A stretch of DNA of 64,000 nucleotides from Microbispora corallina (GTDB taxonomy: Bacteria > Actinomycetota > Actinomycetes > Streptosporangiales > Streptosporangiaceae), in contig NZ_BOOC01000029.1 in assembly GCF_016863035.1 (NCBI RefSeq), forward strand, positions 62,001 through 126,000. The letters run 5' to 3'. The notes below the pieces were generated by a model. It did not search any database, was not told the origin of the DNA, and worked only from the letters and a program-made list of their open reading frames with translations. Positions 4,891-37,882 of this stretch are shown here, piece after piece (positions within the stretch are counted from its first letter, which is position 1; each line of letters opens with the position of its first letter). Made by a program: the position numbers and the translations under genes.

Positions 4891-5826
4891 TCAGCTGGTA
4901 GGCGCTTGACGGTGACGGCCCTCTCGGCGGTACGCGCCCGGGGGCCGGCCGTAGGCGCGCTTGAAGGCGTGGGCGAACGCGTATTCAGAGGTGTAGCCCA
5001 CCTTGCCGGCCACCGCGTTCGCGGGCACGTCGGAGGCACGCAGGAGCCTGGCGGCGACGGTCATGCGCCACCAGGTGAGGTAGGCCAGCGGCGGCTGCCC
5101 GACCAGCGTGGTGAACCGCCGGGCGAAGGCCGCCCGGGACAGCCCCGCGTGCCCGGCCAGCTCCTGGACGCTCCACTGCCGTTGCGGCTCGCCGTGCATG
5201 GCGCGCAGGGCGGCCGCGACGGGCGGATCGTTCAAGGCGGCGGTCCAGCCGGTGGGGGCGTCCTCGCGCTCCTCGAACCAGGCGCGAAGGATGTGGAGCA
5301 GGAGCACGTCCAGCAGTGCGGGCACCATGGCGTCGCAGCCCGGACGTACGCCTTCCAGCTCTCCGCCGAGGAGATCGAGTGCCGCGCGCAGGTGCGGGCG
5401 GCGGCCGGCCCGGGCCGGCAGATGGACGACGTCGGGCAACTCCCGCAGGAGTGGATGCGTGCGTGAGCGGTCGAGCAGGTAGGCCCCGCACAGCATGACC
5501 GTGACCGGGGCGGCGCCCGGCACTGGGGTCTCCTGCGAACCGGACCGCGGTTGCGCCGACGACGCCGGCCCGTCGGCAAGCGGGGTGGAGGGGCTGTCGG
5601 CCAGTCCGTGCCCGGCACCACGGGGCAGGAACACCACATCTCCCGGCCCGAGGGAGACGGGATCACCGTTGTCCGGGATCAGCCAGGCGGTGCCCTGCAG
5701 GACCACGTGAAATCCCGCCGCGTCGCCGGAGGGGAACCTGCGGCCGAACGGGGCGCCGCGGTCGACGCGGGCCGAGTGGGGCAGGCCGGTGCGCATAGTG
5801 GTGATCACGTCGGACAGGACGTCCAT
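4891..5826 (-). CDS. AraC family transcriptional regulator with N-terminal cupin
   Basis: This regulator has about 311 residues. The N-terminal half is a cupin-like effector domain (FHVVLQGTAWLIPD, then LGPGDVVFLPRGAGHGL, the typical cupin turn). The C-terminal ~100 residues are a double helix-turn-helix of the AraC type: WSVQELAGHAGLSRAAFARR and VGYTSEYAFAHAFKRAYGRP. The frame is open far upstream, but ATG 5826 is chosen because homologous cupin sequence starts just after it; no strong ribosome binding site is seen. It is divergently transcribed from the oxidoreductase at 5935 with a 108-base gap, so it probably controls that gene and itself. Confidence 0.9.
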   Translation of the reverse strand: MDVLSDVITTMRTGLPHSARVDRGAPFGRRFPSGDAAGFHVVLQGTAWLIPDNGDPVSLGPGDVVFLPRGAGHGLADSPSTPLADGPASSAQPRSGSQETPVPGAAPVTVMLCGAYLLDRSRTHPLLRELPDVVHLPARAGRRPHLRAALDLLGGELEGVRPGCDAMVPALLDVLLLHILRAWFEEREDAPTGWTAALNDPPVAAALRAMHGEPQRQWSVQELAGHAGLSRAAFARRFTTLVGQPPLAYLTWWRMTVAARLLRASDVPANAVAGKVGYTSEYAFAHAFKRAYGRPPGAYRREGRHRQAPTS

Positions 5827-5934
5827 GCGTGAAGACGATAAAGCAAACAACTGAGCTTTCGGCGTATTGGGCGTCTTGATCGCGCTGTCTACGGTGGGTC
5901 GAACCAGCACTGATCCTGCACAGGGGAGATTCAG

Positions 5935-6996
5935 GTGAAGATCGCCGTCTATGGCGCGAGTGGGTACCAAGGCAGGCTTGTCCTGGCCGAGGCCGTCCGG
6001 CGCGGCCTGAGCGTGGTGCTCGTCGGCCGCGACGCCGTGCGCCTGCGGCACGCCGCCGCGGTCGACCTGTCCAGCCCCGACATACGCCTTGCCCGTGCCG
6101 ACGACCACGACGCCCTGGTCGCCGCCTTCAGTGCGGCCGACGCGGTCGTCAACTGCGCCGGCCCCTTCACCCCGACCGGGGCCGCGGTGGTCCGGGCGGC
6201 GATCGCCGCGAGCCGCCACTACGTCGACACCGCCGGCGAGCAGCCCTATGTCAAGGCCGTCTTCGACACCTTCGGGGCACAGGCGCGGGCCGCCGGGGTC
6301 ACCGTGCTGCCCGCCGCGAACGACGGCTGCGTTCCGGGAGATCTGGTCGCGGCCCTTCTCGCCGAGCGCCTGGGACCGCTGAAGGAGATCATCGGCGTCC
6401 ACCTCATCGCCGGCGGCGGCGGACCATCCCGTGGATCACTCCGCTCAGTGATCGAAAGCATCGACATCATCAGGGCCGGCGGCCTGGTCTATCACGACGG
6501 CGACTGGCGGGTCGGCCTCCCCGCGCGGACGACCTCGATCATTGCGCCCAGGAGCGCGCAGGCGGTTCCGGTGGCGAGGTTCCCCCTGCCGGAGGTCGTG
6601 ACCATCCCCCGCCACGTCCAGGTCCGGCATGTCGAAGGGCTGGCCGAGGCCGCGCTTGCCGCCCGGCTGAGCGTTCCCGTCGACCCGTCGATCATCGTCG
6701 GCCTGCCCGAGGGGCCCGCCGGGCAGGCCCGTGCCACCCAACGCTTCACCTGCGTGATCGACGCCGTCGCGCTCGACGGCCGCCGGGCCCGCGGCGTGGT
6801 GGAAGGCCGGGACACCTACGGCACCACCGCGGTGATCGCCGTCGAGAGCGTCCGCCGCCTGGTCGCCGACTCGGCCGAGCCGGGGGTGCTCGCTCCGGCC
6901 CAGGCCTACGAGCCCGCCGCCTTCCTGCACTCCCTCCTGCCCCACGACGTGCACTGGACCGTCCAGGAAGGCGAGGAGCGCACGCCAGGCGACTGA
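5935..6996 (+). CDS. Saccharopine dehydrogenase-like NAD(P)-binding oxidoreductase
   Basis: This protein of about 353 residues opens with a Rossmann nucleotide-binding motif (VYGASGYQGRLVLAEAVRRG). It continues with ADAVVNCAGPFTPTG and HYVDTAGEQPYV, as in the saccharopine-dehydrogenase/trans-acting-enoyl-reductase superfamily. The substrate is not known; relatives range from lysine metabolism to reduction of lipid or polyketide intermediates. The start is GTG 5935 with AGGGGAG upstream. It is a single gene divergent from the AraC regulator, which is the most likely controller. It converges on the GntR gene with a 76-base gap lacking a clear terminator. Confidence 0.85.
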   Translation: MKIAVYGASGYQGRLVLAEAVRRGLSVVLVGRDAVRLRHAAAVDLSSPDIRLARADDHDALVAAFSAADAVVNCAGPFTPTGAAVVRAAIAASRHYVDTAGEQPYVKAVFDTFGAQARAAGVTVLPAANDGCVPGDLVAALLAERLGPLKEIIGVHLIAGGGGPSRGSLRSVIESIDIIRAGGLVYHDGDWRVGLPARTTSIIAPRSAQAVPVARFPLPEVVTIPRHVQVRHVEGLAEAALAARLSVPVDPSIIVGLPEGPAGQARATQRFTCVIDAVALDGRRARGVVEGRDTYGTTAVIAVESVRRLVADSAEPGVLAPAQAYEPAAFLHSLLPHDVHWTVQEGEERTPGD

Positions 6997-7858: not shown

Positions 7859-8872
7859 ATGAATGCCGTGAACCAGCACGCCGACCGACTCCGCACACTC
7901 GCGATCGCCTTCTACCGCTCGTTCGCGTTCCCGACGGGCGAGACGCTGCGGCGGTGGGCGGTGGCCGCGGTCGTCGTCAACGCGGGGATCACGGTGACCG
8001 GCGCCGCCGTACGGCTCACCGGTTCGGGGCTCGGCTGCCCGACCTGGCCGCGGTGCACGCCGACGAGCTTCGTCCCGGCCCGCAACGACCTGCACTCCCC
8101 GCTGAACATGTCGATCGAGTTCGGCAACCGGCTGCTGTCGTTCCTCGTGCTGGCCGTCGCGGCCGCCTGCGTGATCGCCGCCGTACGGCTCGGCCGTCCC
8201 GGGTACGACCGGCCCCGCCCGGTGCTCGTGCGGCTGGCCGCGCTGCAGCCGGCCGGCGTCGTCCTGCAGGCCCTGTGGGGCGGTCTCGTCGTGCGGACCA
8301 TGCTGAACCCGGTCACGGTCAGCGTCCACTTCCTGCTGTCGATCGGCATGATGGCCGCGGCCTGCGCGCTGCTGGCCCGCTCGGGCGAGGGCGACGGCCC
8401 GCCGCGGCGGCTGGTCCATCGCGACATCCGCACGCTCGGGTTCGTGCTGACGGCGGCCGTGTTCGTGCTGCTGATCGCCGGCGTCGTGGTCACCGGCACC
8501 GGGCCCCACTCGGGCGACCAGGCGGCCTCCCGGTTCGGCTTCGACATCCAGAGCGTGGTGCGCCTGCACACCGACGTGGCGTACGTCGTGGTCGGGCTGA
8601 CGTTCGCCCTGCTGTTCGCGCTGCACGTGACCGACTCCCCCGGCCGGGCGCGGCGGGCCGCGCTGGTGCTGCTCGGCGTGGAGCTGGCCCAGGGCGTGAT
8701 CGGCTACGTCCAGTACTTCCTGGCCGTCCCGGCGCTGCTGGTCGGCTTCCACGTCCTGGGCTCGACCCTCGTCTGGATCGCCACGCTCCGGGTGGTGTTC
8801 CTGCTGCGCTCCCGCGGCCCGGCGGAGGCCCCGGCCTCCGAGCGGCCCGAGCTGCACCACGCCGCGGCCTGA
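7859..8872 (+). CDS. ctaA: Heme A synthase CtaA (COX15 type)
   Basis: CtaA oxidises the heme O methyl group to the formyl group of heme A, needed for the aa3 cytochrome c oxidase. The membrane protein of about 337 residues shows eight hydrophobic helices and conserved heme-ligand context: GAAVRLTGSGLGCPTWPRC with its cysteine, LHSPLNMSIEFGNRLLSF, VSVHFLLSIGMMAAA, GTGPHSGD and RLHTDVAYV. ATG 7859 gives the longest plausible start. GTG 7868 is an alternative that could be leaderless, because a TAGCAT -10-like hexamer (7855-7860) lies seven bases before it. ctaB lies about 7 kb away on the other strand. Confidence 0.93.
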   Translation: MNAVNQHADRLRTLAIAFYRSFAFPTGETLRRWAVAAVVVNAGITVTGAAVRLTGSGLGCPTWPRCTPTSFVPARNDLHSPLNMSIEFGNRLLSFLVLAVAAACVIAAVRLGRPGYDRPRPVLVRLAALQPAGVVLQALWGGLVVRTMLNPVTVSVHFLLSIGMMAAACALLARSGEGDGPPRRLVHRDIRTLGFVLTAAVFVLLIAGVVVTGTGPHSGDQAASRFGFDIQSVVRLHTDVAYVVVGLTFALLFALHVTDSPGRARRAALVLLGVELAQGVIGYVQYFLAVPALLVGFHVLGSTLVWIATLRVVFLLRSRGPAEAPASERPELHHAAA

Positions 8873-13440: not shown

Positions 13441-15009
13441 ATGGCTGAGACATCGGGCGGCGGGCTGGGCCGGCGCCGCTTCCTCCGGGTGGCGGGGGCG
13501 GCCGCCGCCGGATCCGTGGCCGGCTGGGGGGCGCCCGCCGGCGGCACACCCGTCACGGCCTCCCCTCCCCCGTCCGCCGCCGCCGCGACCGCGCCCTCAC
13601 CCGCCCCCTCCCCGGCGCCGTCGGCCGTCCCCGAGCGGCTGCTGCCCGGCGACCCCGACTGGCGGCTGCGCCGGTACGGCCCCCAGGAGGCGATCGAGGG
13701 CTATTGCGACCGGGTGAGCGTGCTCCCCGGAGAGACGGCCGGCCTGCACGTGTCGACGACAGCCGGCCGGTTCCGCGTCACGGCGTACCGCATGGGCTGG
13801 TACGGCGGGGCGCTGGCCCGCGCCGTCTGGCGTTCCCCCTGGACGCCGGGGCTCCGGCAGGGCCCGGCCGCGTTCGCCGCCGGCACCCGGACGGTCACGG
13901 CCGGCTGGCGGCGCACCCTCGACGTGCCCACCGAGGGCTGGCCCGAGGGGGCCTACCTGCTGCGTCTGGACGCGGAGGGCGGCCCGCAGCGCTACGTGCC
14001 GCTGGTCGTGCGCTCGGCCTCGGGCGCGGGCAGGACCGTGCTCGTGCACGCGGCGCCCACCTGGCAGGCCTACAACCGGTGGGGCGGATACAGCCTCTAC
14101 TACGGGGAGAACGGCCAGTACTACAGCCGTTCGCTGGTGGTCAGCTTCGACCGGCCGTACGACAAGACGGGCATCAAGAAGTTCCTCGTCCACGAGCGGC
14201 CGGTGGTGGAGCTCGCCGAGCGGCTGGGGACGCCCGTGGCGTACACGACGAGCGTGGACCTCGACGCGGGGGGCGACGGCGTCCTCGACGGCGCGTCGGC
14301 CGTCGTCTTCCTGGGCCACGACGAGTACTGGACGCCGGAGACCCGCCGCCGCGTGACCGCCGCCCGGGACGCGGGGACCAACCTCGCCTTCCTCGGCGCC
14401 AACACCTGCTACCGCAGGATCCGGCTGGAGAAGGACGCCCGGGACGTCGTCTGCTACAAGACCGACGCGTCCGGCGACCCGATGTACGGCAGGCATCCCT
14501 CGCTCGTGACCACGGACTACCGGGCCGCCCCCGCGGCGGACCCGGAGTCGTCCCTGGTGGGCGTCTACTACGACGGGTTCCCCGCCGACGCCCCCTACGT
14601 CGTCCACGCGCCCCGCCACTGGCTGTTCGCCGGGACCGGGGTGGCCAAGGGGGACGCCTTCCCCCACCTCGTCGGGGTGGAGTACGACCGGGTGACCCCC
14701 GACGTGCCGACCCCGCGGCCGCTGGAGATCCTCGCCCACTCGCCGCTCACCTGCGTGGGCCGGCCGAGCTTCTCCGACTCGGCGTACTACACCGCCCCCT
14801 CGGGGGCCGGCGTCTTCGCCACGGGGACCATGCGGTGGGCCGAGGCCCTGATGGCCGGCACCCGCGACAGCCCGCAGGCGCACGGCATCGACGGCAGGAC
14901 GCGGCATTTCGTGACGGCGGTCACCGAGAACCTGCTGCGCGGCTTCGCCGAGGGCCCGGCCGCCGGCCGGCTGCCCGAGCCCGTGGACAACGTCGGGAAG
15001 GTCTACTGA
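13441..15009 (+). CDS. Tat-exported protein with N,N-dimethylformamidase-beta-like domain
   Basis: This is a protein of about 522 residues. A twin-arginine signal (LGRRRFLRVAGAAAAGSV) is followed by a Pro/Ala/Ser-rich spacer to about residue 60. The rest resembles the large-subunit C-terminal domain of N,N-dimethylformamidase found in many secreted actinobacterial proteins. Visible landmarks are AYRMGWYGG, the TWQAYNRWGGYSLYYG block, VVFLGHDEYWTPETR and LAFLGANTCYRRIRLE. The true activity of these secreted relatives is not known, so I do not assign one. ATG 13441 is preferred because the Tat n-region follows it directly; GTG 13381 is a longer alternative. It ends at a strong hairpin shared with ctaB. 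Confidence 0.8.
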   Translation: MAETSGGGLGRRRFLRVAGAAAAGSVAGWGAPAGGTPVTASPPPSAAAATAPSPAPSPAPSAVPERLLPGDPDWRLRRYGPQEAIEGYCDRVSVLPGETAGLHVSTTAGRFRVTAYRMGWYGGALARAVWRSPWTPGLRQGPAAFAAGTRTVTAGWRRTLDVPTEGWPEGAYLLRLDAEGGPQRYVPLVVRSASGAGRTVLVHAAPTWQAYNRWGGYSLYYGENGQYYSRSLVVSFDRPYDKTGIKKFLVHERPVVELAERLGTPVAYTTSVDLDAGGDGVLDGASAVVFLGHDEYWTPETRRRVTAARDAGTNLAFLGANTCYRRIRLEKDARDVVCYKTDASGDPMYGRHPSLVTTDYRAAPAADPESSLVGVYYDGFPADAPYVVHAPRHWLFAGTGVAKGDAFPHLVGVEYDRVTPDVPTPRPLEILAHSPLTCVGRPSFSDSAYYTAPSGAGVFATGTMRWAEALMAGTRDSPQAHGIDGRTRHFVTAVTENLLRGFAEGPAAGRLPEPVDNVGKVY

Positions 15010-15014
15010 GCCCG

Positions 15015-15040
15015 CCCGCGGCGGCTCCGGCCGCCGCGGG
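15015..15040. terminator. Hairpin terminator between convergent genes
   Basis: An 11-bp stem CCCGCGGCGGC / GCCGCCGCGGG with a TCCG loop lies between the stop of the Tat-exported protein and the stop of ctaB. It can serve both strands. Confidence 0.8.
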
Positions 15041-15043
15041 GGC

Positions 15044-15997
15044 TCAGGCGAACAGCGAGTCGAGCGCGACGGCGAGGAAGAGCAGGGCCAGGTAGACGTT
15101 CGACCAGTGGAAGAAGCGCATGGGCCGCAGGTCCACGCCCGTCTTGCCGGCCTTGACCCGGCCGAGCAGGCCGTAGACCTCGGCCAGGCAGACCGCGCCG
15201 AGCACCAGGGCGACGGCCGGGTAGAGCAGCGAGGTCCCCGCGACGGGCCACAGCAGCAGCGAGCACAGCACGGTGGCCCAGGTGTAGGCGACGACCTGCT
15301 GGACGACCCGGCGCTCGGTGGCCACCACGGGCAGCATCGGCACCGCGGCGGCGGCGTAGTCCTCGCGGTAGCGCATGGCGAGCGTCCACGTGTGCGGGGG
15401 CGTCCAGAAGAACACGACGCCGAACAGCACGACCGGCGCCCACGACACGCTCCCGGTGATGCCCGCCCAGCCGATCAGCACCGGCATGCAGCCCGCGATG
15501 CCGCCCCAGACGATGTTCTGGGAGGTGCGCCGCTTGAGGACCAGCGAGTACACGAACACGTAGAAGAGGATCGCGCCGAGCGACAGCCCGGCCGCCAGCA
15601 CGTTGACCGTGAGCGCCAGGCCGAGCGTGGACAGCACCCCGAGGACCACGCCGAAGACCAGCGCGCCCGTGGGCGACACGTCGTGCTTGGCCAGCGGGCG
15701 CCGCCGGGTGCGCCGCATCGTCCGGTCGATGTCCCGGTCGATGTAGCAGTTCAGCACGTTCGCGCTGCCTGCGGACAACGTGCCGAAGAGCATCGTCGCC
15801 CCGGCGGTCCAGAGGTCGGGGAGCCCGTGCGCCGCGAGGAACATGACCGGAAGGGTCGTGATCAGCAGCAACTCGATGATCCGGGGCTTGGTGAGCGCCA
15901 CGTACGCCTTCACGAGCGCCCCGGCGGAGCGGGGGGCCGTGGCCGTCGCGGGGGTCCCGAGCGGGGCCATCGTCTGCTTGTTCGTCAGGACCGTCAA
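15044..15997 (-). CDS. ctaB: Protoheme IX farnesyltransferase (heme O synthase) CtaB
   Basis: CtaB attaches a farnesyl chain to heme B to make heme O, the substrate of CtaA. This UbiA-superfamily membrane protein of about 317 residues shows the prenyl-diphosphate binding motif [20 protein letters not shown] (N-x3-D-x3-D). The second polar loop [20 protein letters not shown] is also present, with about eight or nine helices. The start is taken as TTG 15997 with GGAAG upstream; ATG 15970 is an alternative nine codons in. It is divergent from tkt, the standard actinobacterial arrangement, with a 258-base shared promoter region. Confidence 0.95.
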
Positions 15998-31209: not shown

Positions 31210-31299
31210 CCCAGCCCCCTCGCCATCATCCCGCTTCTTCGGTATATGTCAGGACCGGGGAGTCGTTGGCGTGGCCGATGAGGCGACCGGGGGTGCGGC

Positions 31300-32010
31300 G
31301 TGGACAAGCGGGTGGTCGTCGTGGACGACGACGACATCAGCCGCAACGGCGTCGCCGTGATCCTCACCGGTGTGCCGGGGCTGCGCCTGGTCGCGGCTCT
31401 CACCCACGAGGACGCGGCCGGGTGGGGCGGGCGCTGGCGCGACGCCGACGTGGTGCTGGTCGACGCGGCCGACGAGCGGCGTGAGGGGGACCAGTTCCCC
31501 GGCGTCGCCGTCGTCGAGCAGGTGCGGCGGCACCGCCCCCAGGCGCTGGTGATCGTCTTCACCGGCCACTTCTTCGACGGCGCCGTACGGCGGCGCATGC
31601 GGGAGGCCGGGGCCGACCTGTTCTTCCACCGCGGCGAGCTGGCCGAGGCCGCCACGCTCCGCGCCGTCGTGCTGGGCGGCACGGGCCGCCCGGTCCCCGG
31701 TCCGGAGGACCCCGAGGAGGAGATCCGGCACGGCGTGTCCCGGCGGAGCACGGTGAACGCCGCCGTGTCGCACGCGATGGCCGCGGACCTCCCCGGACGG
31801 CTGGCCGAGCGGCGCAACCCCCGGTCACGGGCCTGGGAGCGGCTGCGGCGGGAGTTCAACCGGCATGCCGGGCTGCACGCGATGACCTGCGACGGCCGCG
31901 CGCCCGACCGGGAGCAGGACCTGCCCTCACTCCCGCAGATCGCCCGCTTCCTGCGCTGGGCGACCCGGGTGAAGTCGCCCTACCCCGGCCGCCTCGACGG
32001 CCGCGGCTGA
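31300..32010 (+). CDS. Atypical response-regulator-like protein
   Basis: This 236-residue protein has an N-terminal receiver domain: acidic pocket VVVVDDDDIS (residues 5-14), phospho-acceptor Asp55 in VVLVDAADE and Thr88 in VIVFTGHFF. The usual switch lysine is replaced by His110/Arg111 (FFHRGEL). The C-terminal ~90 residues (AWERLRREFNRHAGLHAM, then PSLPQIARFLRWATRVKSPY) do not match a standard LuxR or OmpR DNA-binding domain that I can recognise. The start is GTG 31300. It is followed after 18 bases by a large membrane protein, probably its partner. Gene reality is clear; DNA binding is uncertain. Confidence 0.75.
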   Translation: MDKRVVVVDDDDISRNGVAVILTGVPGLRLVAALTHEDAAGWGGRWRDADVVLVDAADERREGDQFPGVAVVEQVRRHRPQALVIVFTGHFFDGAVRRRMREAGADLFFHRGELAEAATLRAVVLGGTGRPVPGPEDPEEEIRHGVSRRSTVNAAVSHAMAADLPGRLAERRNPRSRAWERLRREFNRHAGLHAMTCDGRAPDREQDLPSLPQIARFLRWATRVKSPYPGRLDGRG

Positions 32011-32028
32011 TCCCGGGCCGGGTCGCCG

Positions 32029-33804
32029 ATGGCGGGGCTTCCGGCGTTCACCGAGGTCGCGGCGCGCTCGGCCACCTTCGCCTCGCACCGGTTCCTGCTG
32101 AACCTGCGGATCTCGTCCCGGCTGACGTGCACGACGGCGCTCCTGCTGCGCAGGCCGGCCGCGCCGCACGTCGTGATCGCCGCCGCCGCCCTCTTCGTCG
32201 CCTACGACGTGGCCCTGTTCTGCGTCCTGCGCCGGGGCGTGCCGGTGCCGCACCGCCTGCGGCTCGCGGCGGACGCCGCCGACGCCGCCGGCTGGTCCGC
32301 CGCGCTCGTGTCCCCGCTCGCGCCCGCGGCGCTGATCGTGGCGCCCCTCGCGATGGAGGCCGCCCTGTGGCGGGGGTGGCGGGCCCTCGCCGTACCGGCC
32401 CTGTCCGGTTCGGCGACCGTGGCGGCGCTGCTGGCCCTCCAAGGCCGGACCGGCGGACCGCTCACCGTGCTCCCCGCCTTCGCCCTGCCCGCGTTGGGGA
32501 TGCTCGGCGGGCTGCTGCTCAGCCGGTACCTGCAGGGCCGGGTGCACGAGCGGCTGCGGCAGGCGGAGGCGGAGCGGCAGGCCGCCGCCGGACGGGCCGA
32601 GCTGGCCGGACGGCACAGCGTCGCGGTGGGCGCGGACACCGCGCTCGACGTGCTGACCCGGACCTGGCCGCTGCTGGCCGTGCCGGGCGAGCCGATCGGC
32701 TTCCCCCTGGCGGCGTGGCGGCACGCGCTGGCCGAGCGGACCGCGGACCAGGCCGACTACCTGGGCACCGCGCTGCTGCGCTGGGAGCAGCGGCACAACA
32801 TGGCCCACGCGGAGCTGCGCCGGGACGTGGAGTTCGCGGTCGCCCGGGAGGCGGCTCCGCTGCTGATCTCGCCCTCGCAGCTGGCCGCGCTGGACGGGGC
32901 GCTGGCCGGTCTGGGGCTGCGCGGACGGGTGCCGGTGTCCGTCCGGACACCGCGGCCCCTCGGGCATCCGCAGGTGCTGGCCGTCGGGCCCCACCGGGTG
33001 GAACTGCCCCAGGACCCCCTGTCGCGGGTGCCGCCGTTCGACCCGGGGCCGATGGTGATCGCGATCGGCGGGATCGGGTCGCTCACCCACGCGCTGCGCG
33101 AGATGGACGGCGTGCCGCTGCCCGTCGCCGCCTGCCTGACGGCGGTGGCCCTGCTGGTGAGCCTCTGGGCGCACCGGCAGATCGCCGCGCGCGGCAGCGC
33201 CGCCCGGCCCCGGGTCCTCGCCGCCTGCCTCGCCTTCGGCGCGCTCGACGCCGTGGTATCCACGGCCACGATGACGACGCTCCGCGCGGGCGGCATCACC
33301 CGGCAGCCGTACCTGCACTTCCTGCTGTTCGCCGGGCCGACGGCGACGATGTACCTGCGGGACCTGTCGTGGCGGTGGCGAACCGGGGCGCTGTCGGCCG
33401 CCGGCGCAGTCCTGGCCGTGTCGGTCGCGCTGCTGTCCGTCCCGTTGTCGCCGGCGGACGCGCTGGGCCTGCTGTGGCCGCTGGCGTTCACCGTCGGCGC
33501 CTCCAGCCTGCGCGACCTGCTCGACGAGGAGAACCTCGCGTTCGGCGACGTCATCGAGCGGGAGCACGACAGGGCGGTGGCCGAGGGGTTCCGGCGGGGG
33601 CGGGAGGAGGTGCTCCGGCTGGTGGAGTCCTCGGCGGCGCAGGCGCGGGACCGGCTGCGCCGCCGCCGGGACCTCATCGACCCGGTGTTCCTGCCGGAGA
33701 TCGAGCGCCGCCTCGACCATGTCGGGCGCTGCCTCGCCGACCTGCGGTCGCGGTCACAGGGAGGCGGGCGCTCGCCGGGCTCACGGACTCCCCCGCCACG
33801 GTGA
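32029..33804 (+). CDS. Large membrane protein, putative sensor partner of the response regulator
   Basis: I do not recognise the family. The 591-residue protein has two membrane blocks. The first, about residues 45-165, has four to five helices; the second, about residues 360-500, has about five. Between them lies a cytoplasmic coiled region (RVHERLRQAEAERQAAAGRA) and a mixed domain. A C-terminal helical tail with GFRRGREEVLRLVESSAAQA follows. I see no HATPase N or G boxes and no clear DHp histidine. So if it signals to the adjacent receiver protein, it does so unconventionally or as a pseudokinase. ATG 32029 lies 18 bases after the regulator. Its last 131 bases overlap the end of the convergent mauE-like gene. 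Confidence 0.65.
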   Translation: MAGLPAFTEVAARSATFASHRFLLNLRISSRLTCTTALLLRRPAAPHVVIAAAALFVAYDVALFCVLRRGVPVPHRLRLAADAADAAGWSAALVSPLAPAALIVAPLAMEAALWRGWRALAVPALSGSATVAALLALQGRTGGPLTVLPAFALPALGMLGGLLLSRYLQGRVHERLRQAEAERQAAAGRAELAGRHSVAVGADTALDVLTRTWPLLAVPGEPIGFPLAAWRHALAERTADQADYLGTALLRWEQRHNMAHAELRRDVEFAVAREAAPLLISPSQLAALDGALAGLGLRGRVPVSVRTPRPLGHPQVLAVGPHRVELPQDPLSRVPPFDPGPMVIAIGGIGSLTHALREMDGVPLPVAACLTAVALLVSLWAHRQIAARGSAARPRVLAACLAFGALDAVVSTATMTTLRAGGITRQPYLHFLLFAGPTATMYLRDLSWRWRTGALSAAGAVLAVSVALLSVPLSPADALGLLWPLAFTVGASSLRDLLDEENLAFGDVIEREHDRAVAEGFRRGREEVLRLVESSAAQARDRLRRRRDLIDPVFLPEIERRLDHVGRCLADLRSRSQGGGRSPGSRTPPPR

Positions 33805-34312
33805 GCCCGGCGAGCACGGCCAGGAGGCGCTCCCCGCCCACCAGCAGGGCCGCCGCCGCCGCGCCGGCCAGGCCGCAGGCCGCCACCTCCCCGGCGTCAC
33901 GGGGCGCGGCCGCGCCGCCCGCCGCGGCCGCCACGCCCACGGCCAGCAGCAGGACGCCGTTGCGGACCAGGTGCCACGGGCCGACCGGTGACCGCGCGCC
34001 GCCGAAGCAGGCGCAGCCCCGGCGGGTGCCTCGCCGTACGGCCAGGGCCAGGGCCGGGGTGAACGCGGCCAGCAGCGCTCCGGCCGCCGCGAGCCCGTAG
34101 GGCGCGGTCCCGCCGGACGGCAGCGCCAGGGCCGTCGCGGCCTCCGCCGCCGCGATGAGCGCGGCCGCCGCAGAGGAGAGCCGGGTGCCGGGGACCCGCC
34201 CGATCTCCCGGACGGCGGCGGCGAACGCCGAGGGGTGTCGTGCCTTGCCCGCCACGGCCGCCGCGAAGACCAGCGACAGGGCGATCCTCAGCGACAGCGC
34301 CAGGTATCCCAT
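33674..34312 (-). CDS. MauE/DoxX-type redox-associated membrane protein
   Basis: This membrane protein of about 212 residues has four to five helices and belongs to the MauE/DoxX group. MauE assists disulfide formation in methylamine dehydrogenase. The signature is YLALSLRIALSLVFAAAVAG followed by GKARHPSAFAAAVREIG, and the CxC of RRGCACFGG (Cys100, Cys102). ATG 34312 has AGGAGG five bases upstream; GTG 34315 is possible. It overlaps the S26 peptidase stop by one base. It is the last gene of the peptide operon. Its job is probably to pass electrons or disulfides to the six-cysteine peptide together with the MauD-like protein. The C-terminal 130 bases overlap the opposite-strand sensor gene. 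Confidence 0.82.
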   Translation of the reverse strand: MGYLALSLRIALSLVFAAAVAGKARHPSAFAAAVREIGRVPGTRLSSAAAALIAAAEAATALALPSGGTAPYGLAAAGALLAAFTPALALAVRRGTRRGCACFGGARSPVGPWHLVRNGVLLLAVGVAAAAGGAAAPRDAGEVAACGLAGAAAAALLVGGERLLAVLAGLTVAGESVSPASARLPVTATAGRRGSARHGRGGARSPAGTPGR

Positions 34313-34860
34313 CACGGCCTCCTTCCCGCCGTCCCGGCTCGCCGCACGAGCACGCCGACGACCACGCCGGCCACAGCCGACACGGGCACCAGCCCCCAGG
34401 TCCGGGAGTCGGCGCTCGACTCCGCGTCCCCGAACACCACGAGGCGGCCGGGAGGCACCCGCCCGGCGCCCACCGCGGCCCGTGCGGCCTCCGGGACGGG
34501 GTCCCCGCCGACTGCCACGACCCTCTTCACCAGGTACGGCCTGACCTGCGGCGGCGCGATCGCCCAGCCCGGCGGGGGCAGGAACACCACGGCGCGTCCC
34601 CGTACGGGCGGCAGCCGGGCCGCGAGCAGGCGGTCGCCGTCGCGGTAGGCGGGGGCCATGCTGCTGCCCCGCACGGTGACGACCACAAGGAGCCGGCGCG
34701 CGAGTGCGGCCGTGAGCACGAGGGCAAGCACGACGGCGGGCACGAGGATGGGCGCGGCGGCGGGCACGAGAGTCGGCCCCAGAGTGGGCACGACGGCGAG
34801 CACGACGATGGGCACGACGATGGGCGCCGTCGCGGCGAGGGCCGCGGGCAGAGCGGTCAC
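34312..34860 (-). CDS. S26 family signal peptidase
   Basis: This membrane-bound type I signal peptidase homologue has about 182 residues. An extended hydrophobic Val/Pro/Ala-rich N-terminus (about residues 10-60, two helices) anchors it. The catalytic serine lies in VRGSSMAPAY (Ser67) and the lysine in YLVKRVVAVGGD (Lys112), followed by FGDAESSADSRTWG, all canonical. The start is GTG 34860 with GAGGAGG five bases upstream. It lies directly after the small peptide gene, so it is the likely protease that removes the peptide's leader. It is small and separate from housekeeping lepB genes, which fits a dedicated role. Confidence 0.88.
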   Translation of the reverse strand: MTALPAALAATAPIVVPIVVLAVVPTLGPTLVPAAAPILVPAVVLALVLTAALARRLLVVVTVRGSSMAPAYRDGDRLLAARLPPVRGRAVVFLPPPGWAIAPPQVRPYLVKRVVAVGGDPVPEAARAAVGAGRVPPGRLVVFGDAESSADSRTWGLVPVSAVAGVVVGVLVRRAGTAGRRP

Positions 34861-34882
34861 GACGTCCTCCTCTCCCCCGGTT

Positions 34883-34910
34883 CCGGCCGGAGGCAGGGGC
34901 CTCCGGCCGG
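34883..34910 (-). terminator. Hairpin between precursor peptide and peptidase genes
   Basis: CCGGCCGGAGGC (34883-34894) pairs perfectly with GCCTCCGGCCGG (34899-34910) around an AGGG loop. It lies 16 bases past the peptide stop and 22 bases before the peptidase start. It could be a partial terminator or RNA-stabilising end that raises precursor mRNA over downstream genes. Confidence 0.75.
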
Positions 34911-34925
34911 GCGGGGACGGCCGGT

Positions 34926-35111
34926 CTACTGGCAGTAGTGACTGACGGAGACCCAGTCGCCGGAGCAGGCGTGCCCGCACCAGGTGGTGAAGCACGAGCG
35001 GCCGGGAGCGATGACGTTCTGCTCGGTGTAGCAGTAGTAGTCGCCGCAGTGGTAGGCGCGGGCCTCCACGGACGGCAGGACGCGGGTCAGCAGTGCGCGC
35101 AGGGCGGACAT
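34926..35111 (-). CDS. Six-cysteine precursor peptide (candidate new secreted peptide)
   Basis: This 61-residue peptide is the likely product of the operon. Residues 1-19 form a short, weakly amphipathic leader (MSALRALLTRVLPSVEARA) ending in Ala17-Arg18-Ala19, a type I signal peptidase A-x-A site. The predicted core of 42 residues has six cysteines at 22, 27, 40, 45, 49 and 60, enough for three disulfides. It is rich in Tyr, His, Trp, Ser and Thr, with the block SCFTTWCGHACSG. The leader lacks the long hydrophobic core of a Sec signal, so the ABC exporter is the likely route. The start is ATG 35111 with AAGGAGG four bases upstream, the strongest ribosome binding site here. I know no matching family. 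Confidence 0.8.
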   Translation of the reverse strand: MSALRALLTRVLPSVEARAYHCGDYYCYTEQNVIAPGRSCFTTWCGHACSGDWVSVSHYCQ

Positions 35112-35169
35112 GGTTCCTCCTTCGGGTTGCGGATGTGTTCTGCGGTCTCGGTGCCTAGGACTGGCGGGC

Positions 35170-37032
35170 TCACCTCCCTCCGGCGGCCGACGGCACCTGG
35201 CGGTCCCGGTAGCCGCCCGCCTGCAGCGCGAACAGGCGGGCGTAGACGCCGCCGAGATCGATCAGGGCGGCGTGGGTGCCGCGTTCGGCGACCCGGCCGC
35301 CGTCCAGGACGACGATCTCGTCGGCGTCCCGGAGCGCGTTGAGGCGGTGCGAGACGAGCAGCGCCGCCCGGCCGCGGCTCAGCTCCATCAGCCGCTCGTG
35401 CAGGGCGTGCTCGGCCTCGGGGTCGAGGCCGGCGCTGGGCTCGTCGAGGATCATGAGGTCGGCGCCGGACCGCAGGAACGCCCGGGCGACCGCCACCCGC
35501 TGCCACTGACCTCCCGACAGCTGGGCGGCGTCGCGGTCGTCCATCCCGGCGAAGACCCTGCTCAGCAGCGTGTCGTAGCCGCGCGGCAGGGCCGCCAGCG
35601 CCTCGTCGATCCCCGCCGCGCGGGCCGCGCGGCGGACCGCCTCGAGGTCGTCCAGGGCGTCGAGCCGGCCGGCCCCGACGTTCTCCCGGGCCGTCAGGTC
35701 GTAGGCCACGAAGTCCTGGAAGACGGCCGTCACCCGGGACCGCAGATCGGCGGCGTGGGCCTCCCTGACGTCCCGGCCGTCCCACAGGACGGCGCCGCGC
35801 TCCGGCTCGTACATCCGGCACAGCAGCTTGACCAGCGTGCTCTTGCCCGCCCCGTTCACACCGACGAGGCCGATCCGCGCGCCGCGCGGGATGACGAGGT
35901 CGACGCCGCGCAGCACCCAGGGCGCGCCCTCGCCGTACCGGAACCACACGTCCCGCAGTTCGACGGCGCGGCGCAGGGGCGCGAGGGGGGCGGAACCGGC
36001 CGGCGGGCCGGCGGGCGGCTCCTCGATGATCTCGCGGTACGCGCCGAAGAGCAGCAGCGCCTTGTACGCCCCCGCGACCCCGTCGGTCGCCGTCGTCGCC
36101 GCTCCATAGACACCCGTCAGGGCGGCGAGGAACAGCGCCACGTCGCCGAGCGTGATCCGCCCGGCCGCCGCCTGGGCGGCCGCGGTGACAACGCCCGCGA
36201 CCGTGACGGCCCCGGCCAGCAGCTCAAGGCCGGTGTGGGTGCGGGTCAGCCGCCGTTCCAGGCGACCCTCGGCGTCGCTCGCCGCCCGGGCCTCGGCCAG
36301 CATCCGCTCACGCAGGAAGTGCCCAAGGCCGAACAGCCTGATCTCCTTGGCCGCGCCGACGTCGGTCAGCAGCATCTGGTACGTCACCTCGCGCCGGACC
36401 AGCGGCGACAGCCGTACGGTGAGGGCGGCCCTGCGCCGGCCGGCCCCGGTCTGCAGAATCGCGGCGGGCACGGCCCCGGCGAGGACCACGAGCACGCTCG
36501 GCGGCCAGACCATCACGAGCGTGGCGAGGAATCCGGTTCCCTGGACGGCCGCGCGGATCAGCCCGACGGCCGAGCGGGTGAGCTCTCCGGGCGCCTGGCC
36601 GCCCGCCTGGGTGGCCAGGCGGAGCCGGTCGAGGTACGCGGGACTCTCCAGCCGGTCGAGCCCGACGTGCTCGTTGATCCTGCGGAACAGCCGGTCCGCC
36701 GCGACGAGCCTGGCCGACCGGGCCAGCGTCCCGGACAGGTAGGACGCGACCCCGCGGTGCGCCCCGGACAGCAGGCCGGCGGCCGCGAGACCTGCGGCGG
36801 CGACCGCCACCCGGCCCGTGTTCCCGGCCGGGCCGCCGGCCAGCGCGTCGATGAGCCGCTTGGTGAACCAGGCGGACACCGGCGGGAGCAGCCCCTCCAG
36901 CACCGCCAGCGCGAGGACGACCAGAGCCGGGCCGCGCCCGGCGGCGAGCCCCAGGCGGGCGGCGGCCGCGGCGGCGCGCGCCAGATCGCGCGGGGTCCCC
37001 GCCGTCCGGCCGTCCCGGCGGACGGCCCTCAC
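35170..37032 (-). CDS. ABC exporter, fused membrane and ATPase domains
   Basis: This 620-residue type I ABC half-exporter has a membrane domain of about six helices to residue ~330 and a nucleotide-binding domain thereafter. The latter has Walker A VGVNGAGKSTLVKLL, signature LSGGQWQRVAVA, Walker B LMILDEPSAGLDPEAE and switch LLVSHRLNALRDAD. There is no N-terminal C39 peptidase domain, so leader removal needs a separate protease, which the operon supplies (S26). GTG 37032 overlaps the stop of the thioredoxin-like gene (GTGA). It lies 58 bases upstream of the peptide gene and is its likely exporter. Confidence 0.92.
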   Translation of the reverse strand: MRAVRRDGRTAGTPRDLARAAAAAARLGLAAGRGPALVVLALAVLEGLLPPVSAWFTKRLIDALAGGPAGNTGRVAVAAAGLAAAGLLSGAHRGVASYLSGTLARSARLVAADRLFRRINEHVGLDRLESPAYLDRLRLATQAGGQAPGELTRSAVGLIRAAVQGTGFLATLVMVWPPSVLVVLAGAVPAAILQTGAGRRRAALTVRLSPLVRREVTYQMLLTDVGAAKEIRLFGLGHFLRERMLAEARAASDAEGRLERRLTRTHTGLELLAGAVTVAGVVTAAAQAAAGRITLGDVALFLAALTGVYGAATTATDGVAGAYKALLLFGAYREIIEEPPAGPPAGSAPLAPLRRAVELRDVWFRYGEGAPWVLRGVDLVIPRGARIGLVGVNGAGKSTLVKLLCRMYEPERGAVLWDGRDVREAHAADLRSRVTAVFQDFVAYDLTARENVGAGRLDALDDLEAVRRAARAAGIDEALAALPRGYDTLLSRVFAGMDDRDAAQLSGGQWQRVAVARAFLRSGADLMILDEPSAGLDPEAEHALHERLMELSRGRAALLVSHRLNALRDADEIVVLDGGRVAERGTHAALIDLGGVYARLFALQAGGYRDRQVPSAAGGR

Positions 37033-37568
37033 CGCACCGCCTCCAGGCCGGCCTGGGCGAGGCCGTGACCGGCGCGCCGGACCCGGCCCTCCGACACGAC
37101 CAGGACGGTGGGGAAGGCCGTGACGCCGAGGGCGTCCGCGAGCGGATGCCTCCCGTCGGCGTCCGCTACGTGCGCGACCGGGGCGAAGTCCCGCACGTGT
37201 ACGGCACGCCCGGCCGCGCCGCCGGAGACGACCACGAGCGGCCTCGGCGCGCCGGCCGGCAGGGCGGCGAGCGCGCGGCGCAGCCCGCCGGCGAGCTCCT
37301 CGCAGGCGGGGCAGTCGGTGGTGAGGAAGGCGAGGACGCGCTCGTCCTCGCCCCGCTCCGCCAGGTCGACGACGGCGCCGTCGACTGTGACCACCCGTGT
37401 CGGCGGCACCGGTGTGCCGGCCTCGGGCAGGACGGGGCCGCGGGCGGTGCGGCGGGAGACCACCTCGTACAGGTCCCGGCAGCGCCGGACGGCCAGCAGG
37501 GCGACGGCGAGGGCGGCGAGCGCGAGGAGGGCGCCCAGCACCGTGACGGTCCACAGCAGCGCGTTCAT
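37029..37568 (-). CDS. MauD/TlpA-type membrane-anchored thioredoxin-like protein
   Basis: This 179-residue protein has one N-terminal membrane anchor (about residues 5-27) and an extracytoplasmic thioredoxin fold. The active site is FLTTDCPACEELAGGL with Cys86 and Cys89 (CPAC), and the cis-proline lies in LGVTAFPTVLVVSEG. MauD, its nearest named relative, works with MauE in disulfide formation of a cysteine-rich enzyme subunit. Here the target is likely the six-cysteine peptide. ATG 37568 has GAGGA seven bases upstream; the frame is open further up without conserved sequence. It is the first gene of the leftward operon. Confidence 0.87.
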   Translation of the reverse strand: MNALLWTVTVLGALLALAALAVALLAVRRCRDLYEVVSRRTARGPVLPEAGTPVPPTRVVTVDGAVVDLAERGEDERVLAFLTTDCPACEELAGGLRRALAALPAGAPRPLVVVSGGAAGRAVHVRDFAPVAHVADADGRHPLADALGVTAFPTVLVVSEGRVRRAGHGLAQAGLEAVR

Positions 37569-37760
37569 GCCGGCATCCTCGGCCGGCGGGCCGCGTGAAA
37601 CGGCGACCCGGAACGCGCGGCCGGCCGGGCTAGCGTGGCCGGTTAAGCGTGATCCCGGTCCGTCCACGTCCGCGCAGGCCGGCGGCCTGCGGCCCGCTGA
37701 CGGCCGCCTCCTCAGACCTGCACCTTTCACCCACGCTCAGCCCGGACCTCGGAACGGGGC

Positions 37761-37825
37761 CGGGGAAGCACGGAGCACCGGAAACACGGAGCCCGGGAAA
37801 CATTCAGCCCGGGAAGCACGGAAGG
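37761..37825. repeat. Four tandem imperfect 16-bp repeats
   Basis: Four head-to-tail units of 16-17 bases begin at 37761, 37778, 37794 and 37810, with approximate consensus CCGGGAAACACGGAGC. They lie about 190-255 bases upstream of the first gene of the peptide operon and just beyond rbpA. They resemble iteron-like protein binding sites, but no binding factor is known. Confidence 0.7.
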
Positions 37826-37854
37826 CCCTCCCCGGAGATCCGGGAAGGGCCTTC
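37821..37854 (-). terminator. rbpA terminator hairpin
   Basis: GAAGGCCCT (37821-37829) pairs with AGGGCCTTC (37846-37854), extended by an inner CCCGG/CCGGG stem, 28 bases past the rbpA stop. Confidence 0.7.
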
Positions 37855-37882
37855 GCGACGCCTGCCGTACGGCCTGGGCGAC

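Follow-up and report, generated by a model that had tools for sequence, protein, structure and literature searches.

The window, a 64,000-nucleotide stretch of the Microbispora corallina genome (contig NZ_BOOC01000029.1, positions 62,001 to 126,000 of the forward strand), contains a minus-strand cassette of five genes built around a small cysteine-rich precursor peptide and transcribed in the order thioredoxin-like protein, ABC exporter, precursor, S26 peptidase and MauE protein. The precursor gene (34926-35111) encodes 61 amino acids, and rereading of its open reading frame (ORF) confirmed the organization described in the original prediction, which had been made from the sequence alone: a 19-residue leader ending Ala-Arg-Ala (MSALRALLTRVLPSVEARA, residues 1-19, 35055-35111), and a core that holds all six cysteines, at residues 22, 27, 40, 45, 49 and 60 (YHCGDYYCYTEQNVIAPGRSCFTTWCGHACSGDWVSVSHYCQ, residues 20-61, 34929-35054; Cys spacing 4-12-4-3-10). 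The core is the predicted mature peptide, with a predicted monoisotopic mass of 4789.87 when three disulfides are closed, and cleavage of the leader after Ala19 is predicted from the conservation of Ala-x-Ala (AxA) in 131 relatives. A strong ribosome binding site, AAGGAGG (35116-35122, minus strand), lies upstream of the precursor ATG; it had been taken for the best of the operon, but a crude anti-Shine-Dalgarno duplex test places the S26 and MauE genes above it.

The four partner genes lie on the same strand. The first (37029-37568) encodes a membrane-anchored thioredoxin-like, MauD-like protein with a CPAC motif and weak Pfam matches to Redoxin/Thioredoxin, and the second (35170-37032) an ABC exporter containing transmembrane and ATPase regions without a C39 peptidase domain. 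Downstream of the precursor, the adjoining S26 enzyme noted earlier (34312-34860) is a type I signal peptidase-like protein (Pfam PF10502, 1e-17) in which the SM.P serine and the lysine catalytic motifs are both present, making it the proposed leader peptidase, and the last gene (33674-34315) encodes a MauE-family membrane protein (Pfam PF07291, 3e-23) with a CxCFG motif, the proposed disulfide generator. The exporter scored 881 bits to the cassette clade, whose members (881-937 bits) are sharply set off from other ABC proteins; the next best in this genome, at 418 bits (L176), served as a negative control, and neither a leader peptide nor a MauE, S26 or thioredoxin-like gene adjoins it.

When the window precursor and its orthologue were left out of a leader profile, that profile still ranked the precursor first of the 402 window ORFs, with a score reached by none of 20,000 shuffles; the ORF at 34926-35111 is genuine and not a chance reading. 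The orthologue, from a Microbispora siamensis cassette (L018/L021), is 70% identical and retains all six cysteines and the ARA, and this one pair gives a ratio of non-synonymous to synonymous substitution rates (dN/dS) of 0.49 with a nominal p of ~0.05. In two better-sampled precursor groups the ratios for leader and core were 0.21 and 0.28, and 0.44 and 0.52, respectively. Protein-level selection, whose absence the original prediction had named as a refuting result, is borne out by values below 1 throughout (0.49 for the window pair and 0.2-0.5 in better-sampled relatives), indicating purifying selection on the protein sequence within precursor types; different types have diverged very strongly. 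The leader has no Sec-like hydrophobic core, as first claimed, its best 8-residue Kyte-Doolittle mean being 1.45, where three Sec signals taken for comparison reach 2.8-3.0. It is a short, divergent example of the cassette-family leaders, whose helical moment lies above that of shuffles on average, whereas that of the window leader does not.

The cassette recurs with a stable content. Near 110 cassette-type exporters we found an S26 gene in 104 cases, a thioredoxin-like gene in 100, a leader peptide in 99 and a MauE gene in 82, and because this content is stable though gene order varies among loci, the cassette genes appear to be functionally linked. The motifs expected to matter for catalysis are kept without exception, namely CxC[FL]G of MauE (81 of 81 cassettes), CxxC of the thioredoxin-like protein (99 of 99) and the Ser/Lys pair of S26 (103 of 103), and none of 16 tested exporters matched a C39 family in Pfam. 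All features of the family (exporter clade, S26, MauE, thioredoxin-like protein, AxA leader and even-Cys core) are present in the window.

A leader-only profile, which contains no cysteine, recovered leader peptides in 73 of 80 exporter-centred loci, with 88 matches scoring at least 12 bits where reversed sequence gave 0, and two further loci carry a precursor with a shorter leader. One match (L167) is a false positive, being part of an S26 gene; after every other match, an even, non-zero number of cysteines follows. Among the five remaining loci, one (L174) has MauE and thioredoxin-like genes with no recognized precursor. The other four (L139, L164, L168 and L172) show the exporter alone, with no precursor or partners in the stretch read. 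At another locus, L173, at least four variant precursors (5245-6229 and 14899-15090) occur, one of which lies ~9 kb apart; the locus may be an array suited to the study of diversification.

Altogether, 131 distinct precursors were collected, forming about 50 loose sequence clusters. Their cysteine counts are 4 (17 precursors), 6 (90), 8 (13), 10 (10) and 12 (1), without a single odd count, and cysteine is absent from every leader; with about 50 loose clusters, the even counts are not explained by relatedness. Some of the 131 were first found by a Cys-containing profile, and the leader-only subset, which provides a clean test, gave the same answer. Alanine occupies position -3 in 122 and position -1 in 125 precursors, within a leader consensus of approximately RLGDRLLxRhhPxxxAxA, while the cores are hypervariable, 21-53 residues long, with differing Cys frameworks. 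Comparison across the set indicates that the leader, the AxA and the even cysteine number are conserved family-wide, and not the six particular cysteines of the window. The outcome that the original prediction had named as refuting, homologues without the cysteines or the AxA, did not arise, both features being kept in the only close homologue. Searches of the precursors against Pfam, NCBIfam, PHROGs and PADLOC returned nothing usable, and sequence comparison with solved structures gave chance-level matches only. The weak protein matches L011 and L012 were discarded as antisense readings of real genes.

The same genome carries two additional cassettes with three more precursors, one on contig 20 (L016) and two on contig 32 (L017), which have the AxA leader pattern in common with the window and different cores. 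These further sites lie at 8776-8985 of L016 and 7540-8006 of L017, and two of the three precursors stand in tandem and have a C-C-CC-C-C cysteine order. MauE-guided retrieval placed cassettes in Microbispora, Sphaerisporangium, Nonomuraea, Planomonospora, Microtetraspora, Actinomadura, Thermomonospora, Amycolatopsis, Micromonospora, Streptomyces and the myxobacterium Corallococcus, and no similar MauE-like protein was found in the plasmid records searched. We counted with the exporter profile (cut-off E <= 1e-170) because the precursor profile, a poor probe phylum-wide, scores few candidates per genome. With the window genome counted in, 149 genomes among the 297 that represent the order carry the exporter clade, spread over 30 of 62 genera, and all of the matches listed belong to the window's own family; cassettes of this kind are a common feature of one soil actinobacterial group. 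Across the phylum it appeared in 2 of 396 genomes, one of them the window's own; the precursor profile independently recovered the same two, the second having a precursor adjoining the exporter. The Corallococcus sicarius locus (L038, precursor at 8095-8280) is a complete cassette with an eight-Cys precursor, which suggests transfer between phyla.

The peptides were compared with known classes. The C-C-CC-C-C order within knottin-like spacing occurs in 53 of 131 cores, including two precursors of this genome, and this inhibitor cystine knot order is absent from the window core (C-C-C-C-C-C). A ten-sequence group of C-C-CC-C-C relatives yielded a confident three-stranded model with a predicted local distance difference test score (pLDDT) of 93, for which fold comparison found no significant match in the PDB; it returned no knottin, which does not exclude one. 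The bacteriocin laterosporulin 3 (6lwy) reached a Z score of only 2.5 against this model, tied with unrelated proteins, and was given no weight. The CxxxC ... CxC motif of CS-alpha-beta defensins is not in the window core, and 2 of 131 cores fit a loose version of the pattern. Nearly all of the 131 leaders end in A-x-A and not in the double glycine of class II bacteriocins, and none of 33 precursors matched the methylamine dehydrogenase small subunit family in Pfam at E up to 0.1. In 109 cassette neighbourhoods, no recurrent modifying enzyme of the kind expected for lanthipeptide-type ribosomally synthesized and post-translationally modified peptides was found, and apart from SARP regulators only the five genes of the cassette itself recurred widely.

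In actinomycetes, antibiotic clusters are classically activated by SARP proteins. A SARP/BTAD regulator lies within 1.5 kb of the cassette edge in 51 of the 109 cassettes, against ~3% expected from a rough count of 31 BTAD matches in the 8.36 Mb genome, and this association, together with core hypervariability, favours a secreted natural product. Beside the window cassette, on the plus strand, lie instead a gene for an orphan response-regulator-like protein (31300-32010; weak Pfam PF00072), a possible cassette regulator, and one for a multi-pass membrane protein (32029-33804; no Pfam match), a possible sensor partner. The block containing them and the cassette (31210-37882, 6.7 kb) occupies a hypervariable hotspot for insertions, bounded by rbpA and an amidohydrolase gene. 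These two genes are neighbours in 15 of 15 sampled Microbispora; in the 14 genomes other than the window's, the gap between them ranges from 136 to 7002 bp with differing contents, being just 136-242 bp in four and holding other genes in the remaining ones read, among them L179, which has the response-regulator and membrane protein pair there but no cassette. Two of the 15 carry the window-type cassette, and since the site lacks it in sister species, the window cassette is accessory.

We consider it likely that the product is a small exported disulfide-rich peptide, ABC-exported, S26-cleaved and MauE/MauD-oxidized, and probably antagonistic. The dedicated exporter would recognize the short non-Sec leader and carry the peptide across the membrane in its reduced state, cleavage after Ala-x-Ala by the S26 peptidase would follow outside the membrane, and the MauE protein and anchored thioredoxin-like protein would act as an oxidizing pair that closes the disulfides, giving a 42-residue peptide with three disulfides. 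The cassette, the conserved leader and AxA, the even cysteine counts, the catalytic motifs and the non-Sec character of the leader are all read directly from sequence. From what is known of these protein families, we judge ABC-mediated export, S26 cleavage, oxidation by MauE and its thioredoxin-like partner, and secretion to be very likely. The original proposal of a non-Sec precursor cut at AxA by the neighbouring S26 enzyme and carrying disulfides gains support here from an AxA that is nearly invariant in the relatives and from the S26 gene near almost every cassette-type exporter. That the peptides may act against competitors, in a bacteriocin- or defensin-like manner, is the least certain part, and one towards which we only lean.

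Several observations weigh against this interpretation. The window cassette has no SARP gene and sits beside the orphan response-regulator-like gene, the window leader is short and shows no measurable amphipathicity on its own, and the window core has a net charge of -2, unusual for a membrane-active peptide. Structure prediction of the window core, suggested with the original prediction, gave a model, but a poor one (pLDDT 57, from two sequences). In addition, no recurrent immunity gene was found in the 109 cassette neighbourhoods, and self-protection, if needed, may therefore lie in the exporter. The adjacent regulator pair raises the question of signalling, in which the peptide, exported and oxidized in the same way, would be sensed by the producer population through this pair. 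Consistent with that, the pair also adjoins the orthologous cassette in M. siamensis (L018), at a different genomic position, but one sister species has the same pair without a cassette (L179), no sensor kinase recurs beside other cassettes while SARP regulators do, and the cores are too variable, and too often in tandem, for a single conserved receptor. We regard signalling as unlikely and favour antagonism over it because of the SARP neighbours, the tandem hypervariable cores, the multiple cassettes per genome and the patchy presence.

A structural or developmental role at the surface of hyphae or spores would fit the distribution of cassettes, which occur for the most part in filamentous actinobacteria that form spores and in one myxobacterium, as well as the Tyr/Trp-rich cores, but is quite improbable given the patchiness within one genus, with empty sites, and the hypervariable cores and SARP neighbours, which point to secondary metabolism. 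The AxA is also the site of Sec signal peptidase I, so that the precursor might be an ordinary Sec-secreted small protein with the S26, ABC and MauE genes as coincidental neighbours; a leader without a hydrophobic core and a linkage that recurs in about 75 of 80 loci despite shuffled gene order make this very improbable. Hardly credible is a small cofactor-bearing enzyme subunit resembling that of methylamine dehydrogenase, whose maturation needs MauE and MauD: such a subunit would account for the MauE and MauD-like proteins in the cassette and for cores rich in Trp and Tyr, but the 109 neighbourhoods have no recurrent enzyme, be it a dehydrogenase large subunit or another, no Trp pair is conserved, and core length (21-53 residues) and Cys frameworks change.

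The antagonistic peptide that we prefer would have partial counterparts in known systems. Pediocin PA-1 (PedD/PedC) and sublancin (Bdb proteins) each use a C39 ABC exporter with a dedicated thiol oxidoreductase, and these class II bacteriocins resemble the cassette in having a short non-Sec leader, ABC export and cassette-encoded oxidoreductases that close disulfides. Their double-glycine leader, however, is removed by the exporter's own C39 domain, whereas here there are an AxA, no C39, a separate S26 and MauE/MauD-type redox partners. Methylamine dehydrogenase maturation shares a MauE-family membrane protein and a thioredoxin-like partner, but the cassette contains no mau enzyme genes and its substrate would be a small peptide. 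In TMcin of Staphylococcus, a cassette-encoded protease, oxidoreductase and ABC transporter likewise mature a disulfide-bonded antimicrobial peptide, but from a transmembrane-protein precursor and with an S2P-like metalloprotease and a DsbA-like oxidoreductase (PMC13252029). Actinomycesin and other actinobacterial and myxobacterial defensins are six-Cys antibacterial peptides of similar size, the actinobacterial ones with no classical signal peptide and with ABC transporter genes adjacent; by contrast, their maturation occurs at acidic residues, the available part of that source describes no MauE or S26 partner, and the defensin Cys motif does not match the 4-12-4-3-10 spacing of the window core (PMC8819291).

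The closest precedent is decRiPPter, among whose computational candidates, in three Streptomyces families, mauE, and in one also mauD, stands beside a Cys-rich precursor as in the cassettes here; its authors propose a role for mauE in precursor modification, with no follow-up in the portion of the text available (PMC7794033). Those precursors have at least eight cysteines and come from the three Streptomyces families only, and the same portion mentions neither a common leader nor a link to S26, an even-Cys rule or a broader distribution; the families are compared here by their text description, and some may be identical with cassettes of our set (PMC7794033). Beyond decRiPPter, mauE or mauD beside Cys-rich precursors went unmentioned in the literature searched, which included few subscription papers, and an earlier description elsewhere is possible.

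We conclude that the window cassette belongs to an extensive family not defined before, one probably dedicated to exporting disulfide peptides and oxidizing them. On balance, the comparative evidence tips somewhat towards a widespread actinobacterial class, many members knottin-like in cysteine order, in which an ABC exporter lacking C39, together with a separate S26 peptidase, would take the place of the double-glycine/C39 arrangement, MauE/MauD would close the disulfides and export would be Sec-independent. If so, a peptide class whose precursors Pfam and NCBIfam do not recognize would be present in roughly half of the order's sampled genomes, and it would amount to a natural library of hypervariable disulfide-stabilized scaffolds, each 21-53 residues long, behind a constant export leader. 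MauE would gain a testable function outside methylamine metabolism, and signal peptidase-type enzymes would turn out to process leaders outside the Sec route as well.
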